Shown one piece after another: positions 1 to 63,734 of a DNA stretch of 64,000 bases. Made by a program: the position numbers and the translations under genes. The stretch lies in NCBI RefSeq assembly GCF_011039085.1, contig NZ_JAAKEI010000015.1:1-64000 (forward strand), read 5' to 3'. Under the pieces are notes generated by a model, which made no database searches, was not told where the DNA came from, and was given only the letters and a program-made list of their open reading frames with translations. The DNA is from Desulfovibrio sp. ZJ369. Lineage in GTDB: Bacteria; Desulfobacterota; Desulfovibrionia; Desulfovibrionales; Desulfovibrionaceae. Every line of letters starts with the position of its first letter. Position 1 is the stretch's first letter.

Positions 1-1
1 G

Positions 2-112
2 AAGGCCCGTACCCATGAAGAGCTTTATGCGGTAGTAGCGAAAGCCCTGAGCATGATCACACAGAATGATGCCCAGGGCTGGTTTGAATCGTGCGGGTAT
101 GAAAAAATTTAA
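2..112 (+). pseudogene. C-terminal end of an IS630-family-like transposase (cut by window edge)
   Basis: The second reading frame is open from the window edge to a TAA stop and encodes 36 residues containing THEELYAVVAKAL and ending NDAQGWFESCGYEKI. This resembles the C-terminus of IS630/IS-DDE-type transposases, which end with a short 'aWF...cGY' segment. Only the last part is visible, so whether the gene is intact to the left cannot be decided. No terminal inverted repeat was identified on its right side. Confidence 0.6.
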
Positions 113-391
113 AGTTAATCTGCTCTAAAAGCAATGGAGAAGACAGGCAAATGGCTTGCGCAAAACGTTGCCTCATGCAAAAATGTTTCTCTGGCCAGGA
201 CAAAACTGCCGACTGATCAGGCAGGTTTCTGTTCCTGCATCTGCGGTATGCCGCGAGAACCGTTCCGTTTTGGCATTGCTTGCAACCGTTTTTGCGGCGT
301 CTGTATCCACAAGCGTCTCTGGACTAAACGCTTTTTCGCGGCAACCTGCCGAAAGGCGAACATTCTTCTGCACCGTCAGCAAGGAGCACTC
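113..391. other. Intergenic region upstream of the stress protein gene
   Basis: This 279-base stretch separates the transposase end from the stress protein. An open frame runs through it in phase with the stress protein gene, but its translation is Cys/Arg-rich and unlike any family I know, and the proper ribosome binding site lies at the downstream ATG. I see no convincing promoter or RNA gene here. Confidence 0.4.
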
Positions 392-2369: not shown

Positions 2370-4196
2370 TTATTCCACTGTCACGCTCTTGGCCAGGTTG
2401 CGCGGCTGATCCACGTCCTTGCCCAGATAATCCGCGGTTTCGTAGCTGAAGAGCTGGAGCGCGGGCAGTGCGACAAAAGCGGCCAGGGGCGCAGGCAGCG
2501 CGGGGATAATCCAGGGATCATCCACCGCCAGATCCAGCCCCTGGTTGGTCAGGGCAATGACTTTGCCCTGTCTGGCCTGCACTTCCACAATATTGGATTT
2601 CACCTTGGGAAAAAGCGCGTCGTCCAGGGCCAGAGCAAAGGTGGGAAAGGACGGGTCAATCATGGCAATGGGCCCGTGCTTCATCTCGCCTGCCGCGGAA
2701 CCTTCGGCATGAATGTACGAAAGCTCCTTGAGCTTGAGCGCCCCCTCCAGGGCCAGGGGGTAGCAATGCCCGCGGCCCAGATAGAAGAAGTTGCGGGCCT
2801 GCGCGTACTTGCGCGAAAGCTCGCGCGCGCGTTCGTGCATGCCGGGCAGGGCGTCGCGCAACAGGGCGGGCAAAGATTCCAGCCGTCCGATCAACTCACG
2901 GCGCCGATCTTCGGACAGGGTAGTGTTGCGGCCGCTCCAATACAGGGCCATGAGCGAGAGCGTCAGCATCTGGCTGCTCATGGCTTTTGTGGAGGCCACG
3001 CTGATTTCCGGCCCGGCCTGGGTATAGAGCACGGCCGAAGCCTCGCGCGCTATGGACGATCCCACCACATTGCACAGCCCGAGCACGGTCACGCCCCGCT
3101 CCCGCGCAATGCGCAGGGCCGCCAGGGTGTCGGCAGTCTCGCCGCTCTGGCTGATCACGAGCACCATATCTTCCCTGTCCAGCAAGAGGGTCTCGCGATA
3201 GCGGAATTCCGAAGCGATTTCCACCTGCGTGGGCACGCCGGCCCAATGCTCCAGCAAATGTCGTCCCCAGAGCCCGGAATGAAAAGACGTGCCGCAGGCC
3301 ACAATATGCAGGCGGCGCGGCACGGGGAGCCGATCCAGCTCAGGCAGGAGCACGCGGCCGTCGGGGGCGTTGATCCGCCCTGTGAGCCCGTCGGCAATCA
3401 CGCGCGGCTGCTCGAAAATCTCCTTGAGCATAAAATGCCGGTAGCCGCCCTTTTGCGCGGCCTGCATATCCCATTGGATAGTCTGCGCCGCATGCTCCAC
3501 CGGGCTCAAATCCGCAAGGCGCAGTATGTCATAGCCCGTGGCCGTGGCCCGCACCAGCTCGCCGTCCTCCAGAAAGACCACCTGACGGGTATAGGGCAGA
3601 AAAGCCGGGATATCCGAAGCCACAAAATTTTCGCCCGTGCCCAGGCCGAAAATCAGCGGCGCGGACATGCGCGCGGCATAGAGGCTTTCCGGCTCGTCGC
3701 GGCTCATCAGACAAACGGCATAGGCGCCGCGCGCTTCGCGCAGGGCCGCGGCAAAAGCGTGCAGCAGATCCGGCTCGCTCTTGCGCCGTTCGGCGATCAG
3801 GTTGATCAGCACCTCGGTGTCTGTCTCGGAATGGAAGACATAGCCTTTGGCCCTGAGTTCCGCCTTGATTTCCTGGTAGTTTTCAATGATCCCGTTGTGC
3901 ACCAGGGCCAGGGAGCCGTCATTGCAGAGATGCGGATGGGCGTTGCGCTCGGCCGGAACCCCGTGCGTGGCCCAGCGGGTATGGCCCATAGCGCAGGTGG
4001 CTGTAATTGTGGCTTCCTGCGCGAGCTTTTCTTCCAGAGCCGTCAGTTTGCCCTCGGCCCGCACCACGCGCAGTCCGCCCTGCCGGAGAAAAGCCGCGCC
4101 CGCCGAGTCATAGCCGCGGTATTCCAGACGGCGCAGGCCCTCCACCACGACAGGCACTGCCGGGCGGTGCCCCGCGTAGCCGATAATTCCGCACAT
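2370..4196 (-). CDS. glmS: Glutamine--fructose-6-phosphate aminotransferase (isomerizing)
   Basis: 608 residues, the normal GlmS length. It starts MCGIIGYAG, so Cys2 becomes the N-terminal nucleophile of the glutaminase domain after Met removal (GHTRWATHG and HNGIIENY are also visible). Two SIS sugar-isomerase domains follow (CGTSFHSG and SQSGETADT, then EGALKLKELSYIHAEG). It ends with the typical DQPRNLAKSVTVE tail. It makes glucosamine-6-phosphate for peptidoglycan and LPS. No ribozyme-like leader is evident upstream. It is followed by a type C repeat and convergent with cls. Confidence 0.98.
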   Translation of the reverse strand: MCGIIGYAGHRPAVPVVVEGLRRLEYRGYDSAGAAFLRQGGLRVVRAEGKLTALEEKLAQEATITATCAMGHTRWATHGVPAERNAHPHLCNDGSLALVHNGIIENYQEIKAELRAKGYVFHSETDTEVLINLIAERRKSEPDLLHAFAAALREARGAYAVCLMSRDEPESLYAARMSAPLIFGLGTGENFVASDIPAFLPYTRQVVFLEDGELVRATATGYDILRLADLSPVEHAAQTIQWDMQAAQKGGYRHFMLKEIFEQPRVIADGLTGRINAPDGRVLLPELDRLPVPRRLHIVACGTSFHSGLWGRHLLEHWAGVPTQVEIASEFRYRETLLLDREDMVLVISQSGETADTLAALRIARERGVTVLGLCNVVGSSIAREASAVLYTQAGPEISVASTKAMSSQMLTLSLMALYWSGRNTTLSEDRRRELIGRLESLPALLRDALPGMHERARELSRKYAQARNFFYLGRGHCYPLALEGALKLKELSYIHAEGSAAGEMKHGPIAMIDPSFPTFALALDDALFPKVKSNIVEVQARQGKVIALTNQGLDLAVDDPWIIPALPAPLAAFVALPALQLFSYETADYLGKDVDQPRNLAKSVTVE

Positions 4197-4294
4197 ATTT
4201 CCTCCTGGAACAGAGCGCGTTGAACGTGCGGCAAAATCCCGATGCTGATGCCGCTCTCAGCCTTTGACGCGAAAAAAATCAAGGTCGCGGCACT

Positions 4295-4329
4295 GGAGCA
4301 TTTAGCTCATTTCATGAGCAAAACGCTCT
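4295..4329. repeat. Simple AGAGC-type palindrome, slightly degenerate
   Basis: A roughly 35-base near-palindrome of the form (A/G)GAGCATTTAGCTCAT...ATGAGCAAAACGCTCT lies between glmS and ppiD. The TAG stop of ppiD (minus strand, 4328-4330) is inside its right edge. It belongs to the same family as 52123-52157. Confidence 0.85.
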
Positions 4330-6250
4330 ACATATCCTTGCGATCCACCACATCCTGATTGACCACTTCCACTTTGGCTTTGGAAACAAGATTCTGCAGA
4401 AAAGCCTGATAGAGGCCGTCCACCCGCTCACGGGTGACGCCGTTGAGCATCAGATCCTGCACGGTGTTCCATTCCGCGGCGTCCGGCGGCTGCACCGCGT
4501 CCACCCGAACGAGCAGCGCGCCCGGGCCCTCGGCCGTGCCGTTCACGGCAAAAGCCGCAGTCAGCCAGGTTCCCGGCCGGGCGGCAAACACGGCTTCAGC
4601 CAGGGCCGCATCCGGGGCGAAATCCGCCAGCGCGCCGCCCCGCTCCATTGCCGGAGCGGTCTTGCAATGCAAGCTCTTTTTGAGCGCTTCAGGCAATTCG
4701 CCGTCAGCAAGCTCCTTGCGGCGGGCCGCGGCATTTTCCATGGCCGCCTTGAGGGCTTTTTCCGAAGTCAGGGCGGCTGTGATCGTCTCCTTCACCGCGC
4801 CGAGCGGCCGGGTAGAAGCCGGCTCAGAGGTGATGACCCTGGCCACCAGGTATTGATCGCCGGCTTCAAGAGCGGTATCCACGGGCGCGCCCGCGGGCGT
4901 GGCAATCAGCATGGCCGCGGCTTCGGGGGCAAGGTTCAGTTTTTTCTCCAGCCCGGCCTGATCCGCAAGGCCCGTCCGCTGCGCCGCGAGGCCGAAGCGG
5001 GCCGCGCCGGCGCTCAGATCCTTGCCCAGAATATTGTCTTCAATCAGGCTGTCCAGCACATCGTGCAGTTTATCCACGCCCTGTTCCTGGGCCAGAGCCT
5101 GGCGCACCTCGGTTTCCACCTCCGTGAAGGGCCTGAGACCGGCGGGCTTCTTTGCTTCCACCTTGATCAGATGCAGCCCGAACGGACTGCGCACCGGCTC
5201 TGAAACCTGGCCGGGCGCAAGGGCAAAGGCCGCGTCTTCATAGGGCTTGACCGTTTTGCCGCGCGCGATCCAGCCCAGCTCGCCGCCGGGACCGGCGGCA
5301 TTGGCTTTGTTATGGGCATCGGCAACAGTCGCGAAATCCTTGCCGCTTTTGAGCTCGGCCTGAATGGCGGCCATCTCTTTCTCGGCCTTTTTCACCTCAT
5401 CGGCCGGAGCATCCTGGCGTAACGGCACCAGAATGTGCGCGGTCTTGACCTGCTCAACCTCTTCAAAGCGATTTTTATTGTCCGCGTACCATTTTTCGGC
5501 CGCCGCGCGGCTGATGCTCTCAGGCTTGACCAGGGCCTCAGGCTTCACTGCCACATACTCCACGTCCACCTTGCGCGGGATGGCAAATTCCTGCTTATGG
5601 CTTTCATAATAGGCCGCGACTTCCTGCTCCGTGGGCCTGGAGCCGGCCGCGAAATCCCTGGCCGGAATAAACAGATAGTCCACTACGCGCTTTTCCCGCA
5701 AAAAGTTATAACGGTTGCGGGCTTCGGACGGGTCCACCCAGGCCGGGGCCGTGACCAGGGCGAAGATTTTTTCCCGCAGCAGGCTGTTGCTGATGTCCTG
5801 CTCGTACTGGGCAGGGCTGATGCGCTGCGCGGCCAGAACGCGCTTGTATGCCTCGGGATCAAAACGGCCCTGCGCGTCCTGAAAAGCCTTGTTTTGGCCC
5901 ACGGCATACCGCAGTTCCAGCGGGGTCACGGAAATGCCCGCGCGTTGGGCCTCCTGCGTGGTGAGCGCCTGCAGAACAAGATCCTGCAAAACACGGCGGC
6001 CCAAATGCTGTTCCTTGAGCTGCTCGCGGGTCACGCCGGGATTGTTGCGCAGGATGGATTCTTCCGCATTGCGATACGCCTGCTCAAACTGCTGAAAAAG
6101 AATGGGCTCCCCATTGACCACGGCCACCACATTGACTGCGCCCCTGTCGGTAAGGCTGCCCACGCCCCAGAACACAAACACCAGAATAATGATGCCGAAC
6201 GCCAGTTTGACGCCAAAAGACTGGGCATTGGAACGGATATAATCAAGCAT
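4328..6250 (-). CDS. ppiD: Membrane-anchored peptidyl-prolyl isomerase, PpiD/SurA type
   Basis: A 640-residue envelope folding factor. One N-terminal transmembrane helix (LAFGIIILVFVFWGVGSL, about residues 16-33) is followed by a SurA-like N-domain (VNGEPILFQQFEQAYRN), a parvulin domain (VKTAHILVPLR ... GGELGWIARGKTVKPYEDAAF ... SPFGLHLIKVE, about residues 260-365) and a C-terminal extension, as in PpiD. The ATG at 6250 was chosen over an in-frame start 54 bases upstream because a GGAG motif precedes it and MLDYIRSNAQ is a typical PpiD start. Its stop codon lies inside a palindromic repeat. Confidence 0.93.
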   Translation of the reverse strand: MLDYIRSNAQSFGVKLAFGIIILVFVFWGVGSLTDRGAVNVVAVVNGEPILFQQFEQAYRNAEESILRNNPGVTREQLKEQHLGRRVLQDLVLQALTTQEAQRAGISVTPLELRYAVGQNKAFQDAQGRFDPEAYKRVLAAQRISPAQYEQDISNSLLREKIFALVTAPAWVDPSEARNRYNFLREKRVVDYLFIPARDFAAGSRPTEQEVAAYYESHKQEFAIPRKVDVEYVAVKPEALVKPESISRAAAEKWYADNKNRFEEVEQVKTAHILVPLRQDAPADEVKKAEKEMAAIQAELKSGKDFATVADAHNKANAAGPGGELGWIARGKTVKPYEDAAFALAPGQVSEPVRSPFGLHLIKVEAKKPAGLRPFTEVETEVRQALAQEQGVDKLHDVLDSLIEDNILGKDLSAGAARFGLAAQRTGLADQAGLEKKLNLAPEAAAMLIATPAGAPVDTALEAGDQYLVARVITSEPASTRPLGAVKETITAALTSEKALKAAMENAAARRKELADGELPEALKKSLHCKTAPAMERGGALADFAPDAALAEAVFAARPGTWLTAAFAVNGTAEGPGALLVRVDAVQPPDAAEWNTVQDLMLNGVTRERVDGLYQAFLQNLVSKAKVEVVNQDVVDRKDM

Positions 6251-6914: not shown

Positions 6915-7166
6915 ATGGGCATTATATCATGGATCATTTTCGGCCTGGTGGCCGGGGCCATAGCAAAATTCATCATGCCGGGCCGCCTGGACAGCGGCAT
7001 CATCCTGACCTCGCTGCTTGGGATCGTCGGCGCGGTCATCGGCGGCTTCATCGGCACCATGCTCGGTTTCGGCCGGGTGGACGGCTTTAACCTGCCGAGC
7101 TTCGTGATAGCGGTCATCGGCGCGCTTATCTTTTTGTTCGTTTATGGAAAACTGAAATCGCGCTAG
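6915..7166 (+). CDS. Small membrane protein, GlsB/YeaQ/YmgE (transglycosylase-associated) family
   Basis: An 83-residue protein with three hydrophobic, Gly-rich helices: IISWIIFGLVAGAIAKFI, IILTSLLGIVGAVIGGFIG and FVIAVIGALIFLFVYG. The MPGRLDSG motif between helices 1 and 2 is typical of this family of inner-membrane stress-associated proteins, whose biochemical role is unclear. GAAGGAAAG sits at a good distance from the ATG. It has its own promoter and a long leader. The TAG stop is the first part of a palindromic repeat. Confidence 0.92.
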   Translation: MGIISWIIFGLVAGAIAKFIMPGRLDSGIILTSLLGIVGAVIGGFIGTMLGFGRVDGFNLPSFVIAVIGALIFLFVYGKLKSR

Positions 7167-7212
7167 AGCGTTTTGCCAGAGCGTTTTGCTAATGAAATTA
7201 GCTAAGCGCTCT
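7165..7212. repeat. Half palindrome followed by a full simple palindrome
   Basis: AGAGCGTTTTGCC (7165-7177) is followed by a complete hairpin starting AGAGCGTTTTGCTAATG (7178) and ending GCGCTCT (7212). The arrangement looks like one element placed inside or next to another. The first AG belongs to the stop codon of the preceding gene. Confidence 0.8.
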
Positions 7213-26164: not shown

Positions 26165-27129
26165 TCTTCATGGGCACGCCGGATTTTGCGGCGGCCATTC
26201 TGGACAGGCTTGCGCACTGGCCGCGCGGGGAGATCCTTGCCGTCTACACGCAGCCGGATCGGCCGGCCGGGCGGGGTCACAAACTCAGGCCCGCGCCGGT
26301 CAAACTGCTGGCGCAAAAGCTCGGCTTTCCCGTTTTGCAGCCGCAAAGCCTCACGCGCCCGGAGGCTCAGGCAGAGCTGGCGGCCTTTGCGCCCGACCTG
26401 CTGGTGGTGGCGGCCTATGGCCTGATCCTGCCGGATCCGGTGCTTGCCGTGCCGCGGCTTGCCCCGATCAATGTGCACGCCTCGCTCTTGCCGCGCTATC
26501 GCGGGGCTGCTCCCATACCGCGCGCCATACTGGAAAATTGGCAGGATAACGCGCGGACCGGGGTTTCGATCATGCGCATCGTCAGCCGTCTGGACGCCGG
26601 GCCGGTCTATGCCGAGGCCGCCATACCCATTGGCGAGCACACGGCCGGCAGCCTGCACGACGCTCTGGCCGACCTGGGGGCGCAGGCCCTGCTCGGCGTT
26701 CTGGACAGGATCGTGTCCGGCACGGCACGAGCCAAAGAGCAGGATGAATCATTGGCCAGCTATGCGCCCAAGATCGGCAAACAGGACGGCGCCATTGTCT
26801 GGGATCGGCCGGCAGCGGCGGTTCATGCGCAGATCCGCGCGGTTACGCCCTGGCCGGGCGCGCGGGCGCGTTTCGCCTTTCCGGGCCGGGAAGAGCCTGT
26901 TGTGCTGCTTTTGTCGCCCGGAACCGTGGGTAAGCCTCTGAGCGGAGAAGCGCCGGGCCTGATGCGCCGCGGCCCTGACGGCCTGAGCGTGGCCTGCGCG
27001 GATCGCTGGTATCGCCTGTCTTCGGTCCGACCGCAAGGGCGCAAGGATATGCCGGCACTGGATTTTGTGAACGGTTTTTTGCGCGGGCTCCCCGAAGGAA
27101 TTTGCGCTTCGGCTCTGCCGGTTGATTAG
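26137..27129 (+). CDS. fmt: Methionyl-tRNA formyltransferase
   Basis: 330 residues. N-terminal Rossmann-type formyltransferase domain with FMGTPDFAAAIL, the folate-site signature NVHASLLPRYRGAAPIPRAI, and a C-terminal tRNA-binding domain (QDGAIVWDRPAAAVHAQIRAVTPWPGA). It formylates initiator Met-tRNA with 10-formyltetrahydrofolate. The ATG is within the 3' end of def. The stop TAG forms the left edge of a palindromic repeat. Confidence 0.97.
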   Translation: MAQAQKSRIVFMGTPDFAAAILDRLAHWPRGEILAVYTQPDRPAGRGHKLRPAPVKLLAQKLGFPVLQPQSLTRPEAQAELAAFAPDLLVVAAYGLILPDPVLAVPRLAPINVHASLLPRYRGAAPIPRAILENWQDNARTGVSIMRIVSRLDAGPVYAEAAIPIGEHTAGSLHDALADLGAQALLGVLDRIVSGTARAKEQDESLASYAPKIGKQDGAIVWDRPAAAVHAQIRAVTPWPGARARFAFPGREEPVVLLLSPGTVGKPLSGEAPGLMRRGPDGLSVACADRWYRLSSVRPQGRKDMPALDFVNGFLRGLPEGICASALPVD

Positions 27130-27161
27130 AGCGGTTGCCGTTTTCAACAGCAAACCGCTCT
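27128..27161. repeat. Simple AGAGC-type palindrome after fmt
   Basis: AGAGCGGTTGCCGTTTTC... pairs with ...CAGCAAACCGCTCT. The same sequence forms the right end of the type B composite at 30602-30748. It begins within the fmt stop codon. Confidence 0.85.
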
Positions 27162-30601: not shown

Positions 30602-30748
30602 AGAGCATTTTGCTTTTGAAATTATTCAATTTCAAAAGCGGCGCTGCCGTCATTTCGCCTGAAAAGCGTGGTTTTCAGGCTCATTCGGCGCGGGCGTTCG
30701 CTCCCGCGGTCGCCAGAGCGGTTGCTGTTTTCAACAGCAAACCGCTCT
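30602..30748 (+). repeat. Type B composite palindromic element, copy 1
   Basis: 147 bases from AGAGCATTTTGC to AACCGCTCT. It contains four hairpins: TTTTGAAATT/AATTTCAAAA, CCTGAAAA/TTTTCAGG, a GCGGGCG...CTCCCGC stem, and a final AGAGCGGTTGCTGTTTTC hairpin. It lies 11 bases upstream of the parB start codon. The same element in reverse orientation is found at 61056-61203. Confidence 0.85.
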
Positions 30749-32750: not shown

Positions 32751-33149
32751 ATGTGCCTGACACGAATTCTTTTGGTGGATGATGAAGAAGATGTTACGCG
32801 CATTTTATCCAAGCGCCTCAGCCGCCGGGGATATACATGCACCACGACTTCCAACGGATATGAGGCTCTTGAGGCTATGGCGCATGAGCCTTTTCCCATC
32901 GTGGTCATGGACGTGAAAATGCCCGGGCTTGACGGCATGGGCGCATTGCTGCAAATAGCCGAACGCTGGCCCGGCACGCAAGTTATCCTGCTTTCCGGTC
33001 ATGCCGATATGCAGCTTGCTGTGCAGGCCATGAGCCAGGGCGCATTCGGGTATTTAATGAAACCAGTGGATTTTGAAGAGCTTCTCTTTAAGATTGAGGA
33101 CGCTGCGGCGCAAAGCCGCTTAGAGCGTTTCAAAAGCAATATGCTCTAG
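32751..33149 (+). CDS. Single-domain response regulator (CheY-like receiver)
   Basis: 132 residues: acidic pair in LLVDDEEDV, phospho-acceptor Asp in VVMDVKMPGLDG, the conserved Thr/Ser region in ILLSGHAD and Lys in LMKPVDFEE. There is no output domain. The ATG at 32751 is strongly supported by AGGAGG. The last nine residues (LERFKSNML) are encoded by sequence of the palindromic repeat family, and the stop codon overlaps the next element. No cognate kinase lies beside it. It may act as a phospho-relay or protein-binding regulator. Confidence 0.88.
   Translation: MCLTRILLVDDEEDVTRILSKRLSRRGYTCTTTSNGYEALEAMAHEPFPIVVMDVKMPGLDGMGALLQIAERWPGTQVILLSGHADMQLAVQAMSQGAFGYLMKPVDFEELLFKIEDAAAQSRLERFKSNML
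33122..33147. repeat. Repeat-family palindrome inside the 3' end of the receiver gene
   Basis: AGAGCGTTTCAAAAGC...ATGCTCT, 26 bases, is a simple AGAGC/GCTCT element that is translated as the C-terminus of the preceding protein. It is directly adjacent to the type A composite. Confidence 0.65.
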
Positions 33150-33286
33150 AGCATTTTCTCTTTGAAAATGCTCTGCTGACGCGAAAGCGGCAGCCGCCGC
33201 AACGCGGCGTACATTCAGGCGAAAACCGCGTTTTTCGCCTGAATGCCACCTTTGACTTTCATAAAAAGTCAAAGGTAATCTGCTCT
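33148..33286 (+). repeat. Type A composite palindromic element, copy 1
   Basis: 139 bases bounded by AGAGCA and TGCTCT. Four hairpins follow in order: 33148-33174 (AGAGCATTTTC), 33195-33209 (CGCCGC/GCGGCG), 33212-33245 (14-bp arms CATTCAGGCGAAAA) and 33248-33276 (12-bp arms ACCTTTGACTTT). Copies 2 to 4 are at 34206, 46563 and 52902, nearly identical. Confidence 0.92.
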
Positions 33287-34205: not shown

Positions 34206-34343
34206 AGAGCAGATTACCTTTGACTTTTTATGAAAGTCAAAGGTGCATTCAGGCGAAAAACGCGGTTTTCGCCTGAATGTACGCCGCGTTGCGGCGGCTG
34301 CCGCTTTCTCGTCAGCAGAGCATTTTCAAAGAGAAAATGCTCT
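34206..34343 (-). repeat. Type A composite palindromic element, copy 2 (inverted)
   Basis: 138 bases, the reverse complement of copy 1 with few differences. With copy 1 it brackets the DsbA-like gene. It ends 6 bases before the MerR-like gene's stop. Confidence 0.92.
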
Positions 34344-46000: not shown

Positions 46001-46564
46001 TCCTGCCGCGACGGCCTGGAACGTCTGCATCTTGAAGAGCAGTTCCCGGAACTGCGGCGGCGGGATGTGAGCCAGCTTGTGCTGCCCCTGCTGGATAAAA
46101 ACGCAATCCTGCCCGGCGCGGCCGGAACCGAAGGGGGCGGCAGCCTGATCTATCATGGGGCCTGCCACTGCGAATGGGCGGACGTGCATAAAATCAAGGG
46201 TCAGAAACAACTGGTCAAGGCTCTGGCGGAGTTCAGCGGCCGTGCAATCAGCCTTAACCCCGGCTGCTGCGGCGAATCGGGCATGGGGGCCATGACCTCG
46301 CCGCAGATCTACAACCTGCTGCGTTCGCGCAAACAGGCCCGCCTGGCTAAAGCATTTGAAGAAGGCTGCCAGGGGCCGGTGGTGGTGGGCTGCCCCTCCT
46401 GCAAGATCGGCATTGCCCGCTGCCTGATCAAGATGCACGACAAGCGCCCGGTGCTGCATACGGTCGAATGGCTGGCCTCTTTGCTGGACGGCGAGGACCG
46501 GCGGCAGAGTTTTCGCAAAAAGGTCAATGAGACCCGCGGGGAAGTGCGCGTGATCGACATCTAG
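43001..46564 (+). CDS. Fused FAD-linked oxidase / Fe-S oxidoreductase (D-lactate or glycolate dehydrogenase type)
   Basis: 1187 residues. An N-terminal helical domain of about 110 residues precedes an FAD-binding PCMH domain (PRGGGSGMTGG, NAGGPSAFEYGT) and a GlcD-type C-domain (HMHAGDGNCHVNIP, GEHGIG). Two ferredoxin-like 4Fe-4S motifs follow (CTRCGKCKQVC...CYP, CTACGRCMANCP), then two CCG domains (CGGALFYDR ... CCGYP; CHCEW ... CCGESGMG). It probably oxidises a 2-hydroxy acid such as D-lactate and passes electrons to the membrane pool, useful in a lactate-oxidising sulfate reducer. The substrate is not certain. GAGGT precedes the first ATG. The TAG stop is part of a type A repeat. Confidence 0.9.
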   Translation: MIMPHKGPHISISPDYVVNRILKINIDDFAEWPESVRNLAIAIAEELFLVAYNPFIDADTVRGSVRESFERESVALAHYYATAIGEGITMFWSAYEAEAEFRGRLIDALRRHLPEECILTEPSALVETATDATDLRMELPLLVVEPDTTEQVAGLVRLANDMKFALIPRGGGSGMTGGAVPARKRTLIVSLTRLTGIGPIDLEQMTVTCQAGAITQDVINAVDAAGALFTVDPASKQASSIGGNVSENAGGPSAFEYGTTLDNLLWWRMVTPTGEIITVERENHPRHKILPDETAVFAVKDVSGGVRNVVHLRGDEIRLPGLGKDVTNKALGGLPGMQKEGVDGIITEACFIIHKKPRHSRVMVLEFFGRSMHPAAVVVRELVELRNRIRQEGDYAHLSALEEFNAKYVQAIEYRRKSEKYEGLPISVIILQADGDDPYLLDKCVGDIVCVVEKQDNVDIIVARDDKEAERFWEDRHRLSAIARRTSGFKLNEDVVIPMERIPDFALFLEQLNLECTAAAYRYALQEVGRLPGFPLEDKDFNREFSQASRAASGDVTATDLSDSEMTARAEAFLAQLAEKYPHLAGKIGKIREYMEASRIVVASHMHAGDGNCHVNIPVNSNDAHMLEEAEETAARVMAECQEMGGEVSGEHGIGITKIAFFGKDKMDALRAFKERVDPRDVMNPAKLVHRELPVRPFTFSFNRLIRDIRESGLPDKETLISLLTAIQICTRCGKCKQVCAMCYPERSMQYHPRNKNMVLGMLLEAVYYSQVNKGRIDERLLKWLRDLVEHCTACGRCMANCPVKIPSGEVALSLRAMLAHEGAGGHPLKERALEWLAGDVARRAPKAAKMASLGQKMQNKALGFVPEIWKKRMQNPLFSGRGPKMGYTNLYEALKLHRGSLFTPGEPQANMPCALYFPGCGGALFYDRIGMSSIMLMLKAGFAVAVPPRHLCCGYPLLAAGMDTAFEDNLARNRQYLAAMLRNLAKQGFACGYLVSACGSCRDGLERLHLEEQFPELRRRDVSQLVLPLLDKNAILPGAAGTEGGGSLIYHGACHCEWADVHKIKGQKQLVKALAEFSGRAISLNPGCCGESGMGAMTSPQIYNLLRSRKQARLAKAFEEGCQGPVVVGCPSCKIGIARCLIKMHDKRPVLHTVEWLASLLDGEDRRQSFRKKVNETRGEVRVIDI

Positions 46565-46699
46565 AGCATTTTCTCTTTGAAAATGCTCTGCTGACGCGAA
46601 AGCGGCAGCCGCCGCAACGCGGCGTACATTCAGGCGAAAACCGCGTTTTTCGCCTGAATGCTACCTTTGACTTTCATAAAAAGTCAAAGGTACTCTGCT
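46563..46699 (+). repeat. Type A composite palindromic element, copy 3
   Basis: 137 bases differing from copy 1 in about four positions; the right terminus is worn (CTGCTTTT instead of CTGCTCT). The dehydrogenase stop codon lies at its left edge. Confidence 0.92.
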
Positions 46700-48835: not shown

Positions 48836-48892
48836 AGAGCGTTTTGCTGATGAAATTAGAGCGTTTTGCTCATGAAATGAGCTAAACGCTCT
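48836..48892. repeat. Half palindrome plus complete simple palindrome
   Basis: AGAGCGTTTTGCTGATGAAATT (half) is followed by a complete element 48858-48892 (AGAGCGTTTTGCTCATG...GAGCTAAACGCTCT). It looks like one copy inserted in another, as at 7165. Confidence 0.8.
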
Positions 48893-52901: not shown

Positions 52902-53040
52902 AGAGCAGATTACCTTTGACTTTTTATGAAAGTCAAAGGTGGCATTCAGGCGAAAAACGCGGTTTTCGCCTGAATGTACGCCGCGTTGCGGCGGCTGCCG
53001 CTTTCGCGTCAGCAGAGCATTTTCAAAGTGAAAATGCTCT
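52902..53040 (-). repeat. Type A composite palindromic element, copy 4 (inverted)
   Basis: 139 bases, same orientation as copy 2. It is followed directly by AGAGCGTTTTAAGG, a left half of a simple element. It is the second end of a 6.3-kb span bracketed by inverted copies (3 and 4). Confidence 0.92.
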
Positions 53041-59552: not shown

Positions 59553-60926
59553 TCAGCCCCTGATTGCCTCGCCCACGGCTTCAGCCAGGCCGCCCAGCGA
59601 GGTTTCCTTGTAGCGGGACTGCAAGTCAATGCCCGTGCGGTACATCACCTCAATAATCTTGTCCAGGGAGACCACCCTCTGGCGGCCGTCTTCCAGGCGG
59701 GAAAGCTGCGCGCAGTTCACGGCGCGCTCGGCGGCCACGCCGTTGCGCTCGATGCAGGGAATCTGCACCAGCCCGCCCACCGGGTCGCAGGTCAGGCCCA
59801 AATTATGTTCCATGCCGATTTCCGCAGCCACTTCCACCTGTTTTACGCTGCCGCCGGTAACCGCGCAATACGCACCCGCGGCCATGGAGCAGGCCACCCC
59901 GACCTCGCCCTGGCAACCCACTTCGGCTCCGGCAATGGAGGCATTGCACTTGTAAAACAGGCCGATGGCCCCGGCTGTGAGCAGAAAATCCCGCTCTCCC
60001 TGTTCCGTGGCGTGCGGATAAAAATTCGTATATTGCAGCAAAACCGCGGGGACGATGCCCGCCGCGCCGTTGGTGGGCGCAGTGACGACCCGGCCGCCGG
60101 AGGCGTTCTCCTCAGCCACGGCAAAGGCGTAGAGCATGGGCCAGAGGCTCAGATCCCGCCTGCCCGCGGCCTGAAGCGCGCTGATCTTGCGCAGCAGATT
60201 GGGGGCTCTGCGGCGCACGTTGTAGCCGCCGGGCAGCACCCCGTCTGTGCAGCAGCCGCGCTCAACGGATTCGCGCATCGTGGTGATGATCCTTTGCAGC
60301 CTTTCGTCCACTTCGGCTTTTGAGCGCCAGAAAAGCTCATTGGTCAGCACGATTTCGGCAATGCTTTTGCCTTCGCGCTCACAGGCGGCAAAAAGCTCCG
60401 CGGCCGTGGCGTAAGGGTATGGCGGCGTTGGATACGCCTCTTGCGGGGCGTCAAAATCCTCTTCCGTGCGGATGAAGCCGCCGCCAACGGAATAGTAGGT
60501 CTTTGCCAGCAGCGCCGTACCGTCAGCGGCAAAGGCGGTAAGGGTCAGGGCATTGGAGTGCCGGGGCAGAAAAAGGCCCTTGTGCGGCAGCATGTCCCGC
60601 GTGTAAAGGAAGGGCACGGCTTTTTCGCCTGCCAGGCGGAGATCGGCATTATTTTTGAGCTCCTGCGTGCGCGCGGCCAGGCGCGCCGGATCCACGCTTT
60701 GCGGCTCCTCCCCTTCCAGGCCGCTGAGCACTGCCCCTGTGGTGCCGTGCCCGTCCCCGGTGAGCGCAAGGGAGCCGTAGAGATCAAGCCGGATGCGCGC
60801 CACGCCGTCCAGCAGGGTCTTTTGGCGCAGCTCGTCGGCAAAGGCCTTGCCCGCCAGCATGGGCCCCACTGTATGCGAGCTGGACGGCCCGATGCCGATT
60901 TTAAAGAGATCAAACACGCTCAGCAT
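59553..60926 (-). CDS. sdaA: L-serine ammonia-lyase, iron-sulfur type, single chain
   Basis: 457 residues. The beta-like N-domain ([22 protein letters not shown]) is fused to the alpha-like domain that carries the [4Fe-4S] cysteines ([37 protein letters not shown]). It deaminates serine to pyruvate and ammonia. The oxygen-sensitive cluster suits an anaerobe. It lies 31 bases from serS, so two serine genes are back-to-back convergent; this may be chance. Confidence 0.96.
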
Positions 60927-61043
60927 GGTTTTTCCTTATGGGTCGTTGTCTCGCGCGGTTTCGCCACTGTGCGGCGCCGGATCCGGCAACTTCGGCGCAG
61001 CTTCTCTTCTGACACAGGAACAGCCCTTGTGCAACGGTATTGT

Positions 61044-61225
61044 AGAGCGTTTTGCCAGAGCGGTTTGCTGCTGAAAACAGCAACCGCTCTGGCGGACGCG
61101 GGAGCGGACGCCCGCGCCGAATGAGCGTCCAGACCGCGTTCTGGACGCGAAATGATGGCAGCGCCGCTTTTGAAATTGAATAATTTCAAAAGCAAAATGC
61201 TCTCATGAAATGAGCAAAACGCTCT
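61044..61225 (-). repeat. Type B composite element nested in a simple palindrome
   Basis: The outer halves AGAGCGTTTTGC (61044-61055) and TCATGAAATGAGC plus AAAACGCTCT (ending 61225) make a complete simple element when joined. Between them lies a complete type B element in reverse orientation (about 61056-61203), starting AGAGCGGTTTGCTGC and ending AAAATGCTC. This is the best evidence in the window that the element moves. Confidence 0.85.
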
Positions 61226-61279
61226 CAAGAGCCCGACCACGCAGGCCACGAGGCGAGAAGGAGAGGGAAGGGGGAAAAG

Positions 61280-61388: not shown

Positions 61389-63734
61389 TCAGCGCTTCTG
61401 CTCGCGGTTGTAGAAGTTGATCAGGCAGCCGTCCAGAATGATCTGGCGCTCATCGTCGGTGAGCTCCCTGAGGGTCAGGGCGATCTGCTCGCCCCGGCTC
61501 TGGCCGCCTTCCTCGCTCTCATGCACCAGCCAGGCCAGAATGTTGGGACGGGCCTGGCTCACGGCCTGCCGGATGCGCGGGATCACCAGGTAATCTCCCA
61601 CCCGCAGCTGGCCCGCCAGCTCCGCGTCCACCACAAAGGGCAGCATACCCCAGTTGATCAGATTGGAACGGTAGCGCTTTGTGGCATACTCCACGGCCAG
61701 ATTGGCCCAGCCGCCCAGCACCTTCTGGCAGGACGCCGCCTGCTCGCGCGCGGAGCCGTCGCCCGGCCTGAGCGCGAAAATGGTTGAGCCCAGGCCGAAA
61801 TCCGCCAGAGCCGCGTGCCCGTCAATATATTCGTCCATGCCGCAGGGCGCGCAGATCGCCCGCACGCGCGCCAGCAGCCCGGGATCGGCCGGATTGGCCC
61901 GGCGGGTTTGTTCCAGGGCCTGCATGGCTTTGGCCCGCGCCACATAGCCGGGATCCTTGCGGGAGAGCGTGAATTCCGCCAGTTTGACCGGGTTGGAGCG
62001 CAAAGAGGACGTCTCGCCGGAAGGGATCAGCTCGTCCGTGGTGGTCACGGGATCCGTGATCACGCTGGCGATCTGGAGGATCAAATGTTCGGGCAGGGGG
62101 CTCATCGCCGGCCAGTCCGCGATATTCGGACCGAATATCAGCGGGGTTTCCGGCCTGGCCGCGCCAAAGCCGTTGTAGACGCGGCGTTCATAGATGATCG
62201 GCGTAAAGTGGTAGCGCAGATCCACGTCCCTCAGGCCGGCTTCCGTCCAGTCAAGCTCCGTGGCCGCGGTCAGGCGGCCGCCGTTCGCCGCTGTGGCCGC
62301 GATGGAGCGGGCATCCATGAGCGCCACAGCGGCAAGCTGGCCGTTGGCCGGTTTGGAGCCCTCGCGATTGGGAAAGTTGCGGGTCGCGTGGCGGAGGGAC
62401 AGCGCCCCGTGCGCCGGGGTGTCGCCCGCGCCGAAGCAGGGCCCGCAAAAGGCGTTTTTGAGAATGGCCCCGGCGGCCATCAATCTGGCTGCGGAGCTGT
62501 TGTGCAACAGGGCCAGGGCCTGCGGCTCGCTGGCCGGATAGACCGAAAGGCTGAAGGCCATGTTGCCGACGCTCTTGCCGTCCAGAATGGCCGCGGCCAG
62601 GGAGATGTTTTCAAAGGAGCCGCCCGCGCAGCCCGCAATGATGCCCTGATCCGCATGCAGGCGGCCGTCGCGGATTTTGTCCGTGAGTTTGAACCGCGCC
62701 GCGGCGTCGCCGAATTGTTTGCGGGCTTCTTCTTCCACGCTCTTCAGGATTTCTTCGGCATGGCGGTTCAGCTCGGCAATGGGCCAGACGTTGCTGGGAT
62801 GAAACGGCAGGGCGATCATGGCTTGCACAGCGCTCAAATCAACCCTGATCAGCCCGTCATAACAGGCCGGGCCCTGCGGCGCCAGGCGTTTGTAATCCTT
62901 TTCCCGCTGGTGCAGCGCAAGGTAGTCGCGCACCTTTTCGTCGGTCTGCCAGATGGAGGACAGGCAGGCGGTTTCCGTGGTCATCACGTCAATGCCGCAG
63001 CGGTACTCCACCGAGAGATTGGCCACGCCCGGGCCCATGAATTCCATGACCTTGTTTTTCACAAAGCCGTTTTTGAAAACAGCGCCGATGATCGCCAGAG
63101 CCACGTCCTGCGGCCCCACGCCGGGCGCGGGCGTGCCCTCCAGCCAGACGCCCACCACCTCGGGCGCGGGAACGTCGTAGGTTTTGCCCAGCAGTTGTTT
63201 GACCAGCTCTGGCCCGCCCTCGCCAATGCCCATGACGCCCAGCGCGCCGTAGCGGGTGTGGCTGTCCGATCCGAGGATCATGCCCCCGCACGCGGCCATC
63301 ATTTCGCGCACATACTGGTGGATCACGGCCAGATGCGGAGGCACGAAGATGCCCCCGTATTTTTGGGCGGCAGCCAGGCCAAAGAGATGATCGTCCTCGT
63401 TGATGGTGCCGCCCACGGCGCAGAGGCTGTTGTGGCAGTTGGTCAGCGCGTAGGGCACGGGGAATTCCGTCAGGCCGCTGGCCCGCGCGGTCTGGATGAT
63501 GCCCACATAGGTGATGTCGTGGGAGGCCAGGGCGTCAAAGCGCAGGCGCAGGCCCGGCGCGTCAGCGCTGCCGGGGGCCTGCGTGTCGCTGCCTTTATTA
63601 TGGGCGGCCAGGATGGCATGGGCCAGAGTGTTGCGCCGGGCGGCCGCGGGATCTATGCCCCGGGCCGTGGCCTGGTCGGCAGTGAGGATGTGCGCGCCGT
63701 CAATAACCGTGGCGTGTTCAAAAAGCTGGATCAT
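61389..63734 (-). CDS. Aconitase-superfamily hydratase (YbhJ-like)
   Basis: 781 residues. The aconitase fold is recognisable by the cluster cysteines GCAGGSFENI and FCGPCFGAG, and by SDSHTRYGALGVMGIGEGG. The swivel domain is at the C-terminus (NLAVEYATKRYRSNLINWGMLPFVV). The overall sequence follows E. coli YbhJ-type proteins rather than AcnA or AcnB; the substrate of these is not settled. The neighbouring isocitrate-dehydrogenase-like gene suggests a role as aconitase for citrate/isocitrate. Confidence 0.78.
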   Translation of the reverse strand: MIQLFEHATVIDGAHILTADQATARGIDPAAARRNTLAHAILAAHNKGSDTQAPGSADAPGLRLRFDALASHDITYVGIIQTARASGLTEFPVPYALTNCHNSLCAVGGTINEDDHLFGLAAAQKYGGIFVPPHLAVIHQYVREMMAACGGMILGSDSHTRYGALGVMGIGEGGPELVKQLLGKTYDVPAPEVVGVWLEGTPAPGVGPQDVALAIIGAVFKNGFVKNKVMEFMGPGVANLSVEYRCGIDVMTTETACLSSIWQTDEKVRDYLALHQREKDYKRLAPQGPACYDGLIRVDLSAVQAMIALPFHPSNVWPIAELNRHAEEILKSVEEEARKQFGDAAARFKLTDKIRDGRLHADQGIIAGCAGGSFENISLAAAILDGKSVGNMAFSLSVYPASEPQALALLHNSSAARLMAAGAILKNAFCGPCFGAGDTPAHGALSLRHATRNFPNREGSKPANGQLAAVALMDARSIAATAANGGRLTAATELDWTEAGLRDVDLRYHFTPIIYERRVYNGFGAARPETPLIFGPNIADWPAMSPLPEHLILQIASVITDPVTTTDELIPSGETSSLRSNPVKLAEFTLSRKDPGYVARAKAMQALEQTRRANPADPGLLARVRAICAPCGMDEYIDGHAALADFGLGSTIFALRPGDGSAREQAASCQKVLGGWANLAVEYATKRYRSNLINWGMLPFVVDAELAGQLRVGDYLVIPRIRQAVSQARPNILAWLVHESEEGGQSRGEQIALTLRELTDDERQIILDGCLINFYNREQKR

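Follow-up and report, generated by a model that had tools for sequence, protein, structure and literature searches.

Nested palindromic repeats between two genes of Desulfovibrio sp. ZJ369 and their probable partner, a resident IS630-type insertion sequence

Palindromes that occur in mosaic composites are known from the REP/BIME elements with their RAYT genes. RUP of S. pneumoniae is a 107-bp MITE, present in 108 copies, with terminal inverted repeats like those of a resident IS630 and with TA targets (PMC2229807); in the RUP/IS630-Spn1 pair of pneumococcus the repeats also insert into one another (PMC3049150). ISY100 of Synechocystis, a member of the IS630/Tc1/mariner family, inserts almost exclusively at TA, which it duplicates. 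Among 39 of its products formed in vitro, 34 had the normal TA duplication, two had AA/TT duplicated and in three the TA of one side was matched by a single A on the opposite side (PMC2170065); as these five exceptions in 39 indicate, odd junctions do occur. The Correia/NEMIS elements of Neisseria are short elements with terminal inverted repeats, TA at their ends and a target duplication (PMC2229807).

For Desulfovibrio, titles and abstract openings (with subscription journals mostly outside the search) yielded no paper on IS630 MITEs, and Desulfovibrio combined with MITE and IS630 gave a single match, which from the part available is a Tc1/mariner phylogeny (PMC7325037). The terms IS630, Tc1, nested and Desulfovibrio have zero occurrences in a review of prokaryotic MITEs (PMC10969869).

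A palindrome split by a type B element

The window, by which we mean the whole stretch of 64,000 nucleotides analysed, is part of contig C13 of a draft genome of 2.88 Mb in 108 contigs. At 61044-61225 its sequence reads as a 35-bp palindrome split after 12 bases by a 145-bp repeat, called type B, that runs from GAGC to GCTC. The nest is 182 bp long, has genes on both flanks, and lies in the 462-bp gap between an L-serine dehydratase gene (59553-60926, minus strand; PF03313, PF03315), its downstream neighbour, and an aconitase-family hydratase gene (61389-63734, minus strand; PF00330), its upstream neighbour, whose product has its nearest named matches at 79 and 76% identity in Desulfovibrionaceae and Desulfovibrio.

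On the plus strand the left part of the outer palindrome (AGAGCGTTTTGC, 61044-61055) is followed by a junction dinucleotide CA (61056-61057), the inner B element (61058-61202; GAGCGGTTTGC...GCAAAATGCTC, made of successive hairpins and matching an IS630 right end at its right terminus), a second junction dinucleotide TC (61203-61204) and the right part of the palindrome (ATGAAATGAGCAAAACGCTCT, 61205-61225); IS630-type insertion predicts TA at both junctions. The neighbouring T at 61043 and C at 61226 make the outer element's own left dinucleotide TA and its right one TC. With one outer base per end included, the full B element measures 147 bp (61057-61203, AGAGCGGTTTGC...GCAAAATGCTCT), and 61203-61225 reads TCATGAAATGAGCAAAACGCTCT.

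A sequence-only reading of this DNA had proposed that a complete, reverse-oriented type B element parts the halves of a simple element, and that removing it restores the simple form. Both proposals held: deletion of 61056-61202 (147 bp) gives AGAGCGTTTTGCTCATGAAATGAGCAAAACGCTCT, the outer palindrome restored exactly, whereas deletion of 61056-61203 instead leaves a 34-mer, and B is oriented opposite to a complete B element with TA/TA flanks at 30602-30748 (minus strand). The restored 35-mer is identical to its own reverse complement at 32 of 35 positions, with 16-bp arms and a 3-base loop; apart from the junction bases the outer palindrome at 61044 is otherwise perfect. The outer halves also form a unit elsewhere, as that reading needed, with the 35-mer intact at four other sites in the same genome (C13:52123, C50:7857, C85:55305 and C97:96312).

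Taken as RNA, the minus strand of 61043-61226 has a predicted fold of -99.4 kcal/mol (z -10.3). Two promoter-like matches fall in the element against 0.1 expected from shuffles of the region; they are consensus hits only, on the strand opposite the serine dehydratase gene. At the gathering threshold Rfam had zero matches in the window, the whole nest had zero matches among plasmids and phages, and patterns for the left flank and right junction had zero matches in viral_contigs.

Three relatives carry the two genes side by side (L037, on the same contig as G024; L060; L108), the ends of the tblastn matches being about 140, 34 and 32 bp apart, and no such element stands in these gaps. The nested form is thus not shared by all relatives; had it been, this would have counted against the sequence-only reading. 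In G028 the two genes lie ~11 kb apart, and its serine dehydratase is as similar as that of G024 (87% against 85%). For the four gaps of the window that were compared, its intergenic DNA gave no base-by-base alignment, and what can be read there is limited to presence or absence.

The repeat families and their IS630 partner

Both repeats are abundant. With at most one mismatch, AGAGCGTTTTGC has 22 occurrences in the window where 0.49 would be expected, a count reached by none of 100 shuffles. Genome-wide, the 35-mer pattern has 47 forward and 45 reverse matches (self-palindromic copies appear on both strands) and none for the reversed control, and TAGAGCRNTTT occurs 582 times against 8 for its reversed control. 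B-like places number at least 40, the nest included, these being the best 40 of 374 first-look candidates scored. A flank table of 86 rows of own-genome DNA, in which some palindromic copies are entered in both orientations, shows many "simple" palindromes to be the left end of longer composites with a few types of tail. At 27128-27161 the type B left hairpin stands alone, tailless, with T and A at its flanks.

The features of B are those of a MITE. At 145 bp it is too short for a transposase gene, and its copies are many; it has terminal inverted repeats, GAGCGG, GAGCGT or GAGCAA on the left and GAGCATTTTGC on the right, and the simple palindromes carry GAGCGTTTTGC-type sequence at both termini. 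From 39 B copies with a right flank we set aside five with no left end in reach; the remaining 34 complete copies are flanked by TA/TA in 29 cases and by CA/TA, GA/TA, TA/TG, TA/TT and CA/TC in one case each. The CA/TC copy is that at 61044, the sole one of the 34 without TA on either side, so that a target-site duplication is present in the family (29/34, and at C74:41329, described below) and not at 61044.

The presumed autonomous partner is seen in several copies. DDE_3 (PF13358) has nine matches in the genome. In the IS copy on C73 (~3522-4516) a helix-turn-helix ORF, matching PF13384 and PF01527, and a DDE_3 ORF lie in different frames, and an in-frame stop is found close to the end of this copy, whose right terminus is a variant one; in the C10 copy the DDE_3 ORF is open (PF13358, E 2.3e-37). 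The HTH and DDE_3 transposase domains that mark IS630/Tc1-mariner elements are thus both present, drawn from two copies. A DNA search of the genome with the IS gave 42 matches, many of them a single element end at a contig end, and this multi-copy IS seems a main cause of the broken assembly. IS ends were located by patterns allowing at most five substitutions on the left and three on the right, and both ends of one copy were read together on C73; among the loci read, TA adjoins every distinct end, left (21 of 21) and right (12 of 12), as in the IS630/Tc1-mariner family. At L230 (G000:C40, G000 being this genome) an IS630 right end abuts the IS's own first-ORF sequence at TA, which would fit the insertion of one IS copy into a second.

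The ends link repeat and IS. Seven of the 12 IS right ends read GCAAAATGCTC, which reversed is GAGCATTTTGCTTTT, identical to the B right end over 15 bases and exactly how the right end starts in some of the IS copies; a 138-bp B variant begins GAGCAATTTCACTTT, close to the IS left ends. The ends of B thus match those of an autonomous element type of the same genome, represented among the copies read by ones that have a stop (C73) or run off contigs. We assign, with high confidence, the repeat family to the IS630-type MITEs, the palindromes and type B very probably being MITEs of a resident IS630/Tc1-mariner IS.

Across 61 genomes of the genus, this one included, the IS protein has a match in 21 and B in 16 (with at most 14 candidates per genome scored), and an IS protein of at least 84% identity together with a B match above 100 bits occurs only here and in G024. 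In G024 B has at least 14 places, 76-85% identical; four of the 14 (L346, L347, L348 and L350) show two recognisable ends, each with TA, and in the others the pattern finds one end or none, or one side is not TA (CA in L349, L351 and L357, for example). G028 has zero IS matches and one B match of 41.9 bits.

A second system is also visible. The contig opens, at window 1-126, partway through the end of a diverged second IS630, with terminus GAGCAGATTAACTTT and 66% protein identity to the first over the last 35 residues. A second MITE family of ~140 bp (33148-33286, 34206-34343, 46560-46699 and 52902-53040) has the ends GAGCATTTTC and GAGCAGATTACCTTTGAC, of which GAGCAGATTACCTTTGAC resembles the terminus at 1-126.

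Other nests and the origin of the nest at 61044

For each of 136 candidate spans of 25-200 bp, the two flanks were joined and the product looked up in own-genome DNA, a screen run without a shuffled control. Fifteen joined flanks match another place, and on inspection two restore a palindrome around B: 61044 and C74:41329. The latter reads ...AATGAAAT-TA-GAGC-B-GCTC-TA-GCGAAACGCTCT, and since TA stands at each junction and the restored palindrome accounts for one of the two, its target duplication is intact. By eye, C97:94249 has another MITE in the palindrome, with TA/TA junctions and an outer right half that is shortened; C30:14883, also by eye, is a nest with CA/TG junctions and a doubled GC.

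Junctions of a half palindrome with an inserted element fall at two positions. By whole-genome patterns, nine at the first position comprise five TA and four CA and no other dinucleotide, and all ten at the second are TA (one mismatch allowed); the IS itself is the inserted element in three of the five first-position TA junctions and in one second-position junction. The CA class consists of 7165, 61044, C15:51660 and C30:14883. Two sites had been proposed as similar to the nest: 7165-7212, a half plus a full palindrome with CA at the junction, and 48836-48892, a longer half joined to a full palindrome at TA, the second TA position (both plus strand). The half-plus-full arrangement stands at both sites, but the outer right half was found at neither, by pattern within 1.3 kb or by eye in 230-240 bases, a search that a strongly decayed half could escape. 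In 11 of the 13 half-plus-element cases inspected by eye there is a left half only, the exceptions being C97:94249 and C30:14883.

IS ends are also over-represented in these repeats: by hand, 10 of 33 lie inside MITE sequence (left ends at L248, L251, L258 and L263; right ends at L181, L225, L254, L257, L290 and L293), compared with 61 of 1115 window TAs (5.5%) in hand-marked MITE intervals. The binomial probability is ~7e-6, with the ends of one IS copy possibly counted twice, so that as few as five copies may stand behind the 10.

Transposases of other IS630 elements mobilise MITEs in trans, and by analogy the IS630 transposase here would move the MITEs. We think it probable that neither the 35-bp outer palindrome nor the 145-bp inner B element is autonomous, and that both are MITEs which the multi-copy resident IS630 mobilises in this way. 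The direct basis is the matching ends, the TA flanks, the multi-copy IS, the clean TA/TA B nest and the IS inside the same palindromes. The transposase would recognise GAGC[A/G]NTTT... ends and excise the element, which would enter at a TA and duplicate it. Many simple palindromes carry TA on each arm (GC-TA-ATGAAAT-TA-GC) and would be targets themselves; because the arms offer TA, MITEs and IS would land in palindromes. At 61044, B would have entered at the first TA position, and the CA and TC now there would be a TA duplication later changed.

The nesting had been read as implying actual transposition or copying, which the IS630-like ends, the 29 of 34 TA/TA copies and C74:41329 bear out for the family; at 61044, with CA on one side and TC on the other, a target duplication is not seen. 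We hold this particular event with less confidence than the family assignment. The outer element's own right flank, TC and not TA, speaks against this account, as does the small share of B places in G024 with TA at both ends; two changes within four duplicated bases would be a coincidence in an outer palindrome otherwise free of defects, and random TA decay would not readily give CA in four of nine first-position junctions. Three histories cost two changes each: TA changed on both sides, a TC target changed twice on the left, or a CA target changed twice on the right.

It is unlikely, if well short of negligible, that the elements are IS630-type MITEs but that recombination between copies, by gene conversion, microhomology joining or template switching at hairpins, finished or rewrote the nest at 61044, in place of one clean insertion. 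Such a history would suit the CA/TC junctions, the TAGAGCGTTTTGC-CA-GAGCG junction that 61044 has in common with 7165 and C15:51660, the CA/TG junctions and doubled GC of C30:14883, and a B copy (L002) in which GCCA precedes the GAGC; the TAGAGCRNTTT sites would be many potential donors. It sits less well with an insert spanning GAGC to GCTC exactly, the limits of the TA/TA copies, at a site where TA-flanked MITE and IS insertions occur elsewhere, and it is unneeded for the C74 nest. We conclude that at 61044 either the duplicated target has decayed or the nest was completed by recombination.

Starting from IS630-type transposition, we suggest tentatively, as a possibility we rather doubt, that nesting drives modular growth of the repeat family. 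A MITE would land in another's TA, the transposase would pair the outer left with the inner right end, and the hybrid would move as a unit, which would produce half-plus-full units whose outermost flanks are TA; by eye, seven of the 11 one-sided cases (L288, L289, L295, L299, L300, L301 and L302) have TA at both. If this is true, the palindromes serve their own IS as landing pads besides being parasites.

High-copy 35-bp palindromes in mosaic composites, and four Y1_Tnp (PF01797) matches in the genome, might instead suggest REP/BIME palindromes moved by a REP-associated tyrosine transposase, which we consider very improbable: the palindrome is absent from the stretches examined around the four Y1_Tnp genes, so that at none of them is a RAYT gene flanked by palindromes, the single GAGC ends near those on C77 and C73 either belong to IS630 or stand isolated, the repeats are flanked by TA, and it is a DDE transposon that their ends match. 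Transposases of the PF01609 family, with nine matches of which one falls under the family cut-off, were rejected as movers, none being bracketed by a GAGC end pair; near one such locus, L232, lies a MITE of the second family. A misjoin between repeats, for which 108 contigs and the many IS630 matches at contig ends might speak, is scarcely credible for a 182-bp nest with gene flanks on both sides and further nests at independent places.

Comparison with described systems

The nest is real, and it is a new example of a known phenomenon that leaves current knowledge of MITEs standing. It ties intergenic palindromes to a resident IS630, which accounts for their nesting and mosaics, and the natural series of nested insertions offers a system for testing which ends a bacterial Tc1/mariner transposase uses and which TA it chooses.

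REP/BIME elements differ in the type of transposase, the repeats here having TA flanks and the Y1_Tnp genes standing without adjacent palindromes. Correia/NEMIS elements have other terminal inverted repeats, and the part of the source available names no IS630 partner for them (PMC2229807). ISY100 resembles the partner IS as a bacterial IS of the IS630/Tc1/mariner family with a TA target; it is an autonomous element, and the available part of its description mentions no palindromic MITE family (PMC2170065). RUP/IS630-Spn1, as far as its accessible descriptions go, is like the present family in being a short MITE with terminal inverted repeats resembling a resident IS630 and with TA targets. Sequence and host differ from those of RUP, and the MITE here is modular: its left end is a full palindrome, common to stand-alone copies, joined to several kinds of tail.
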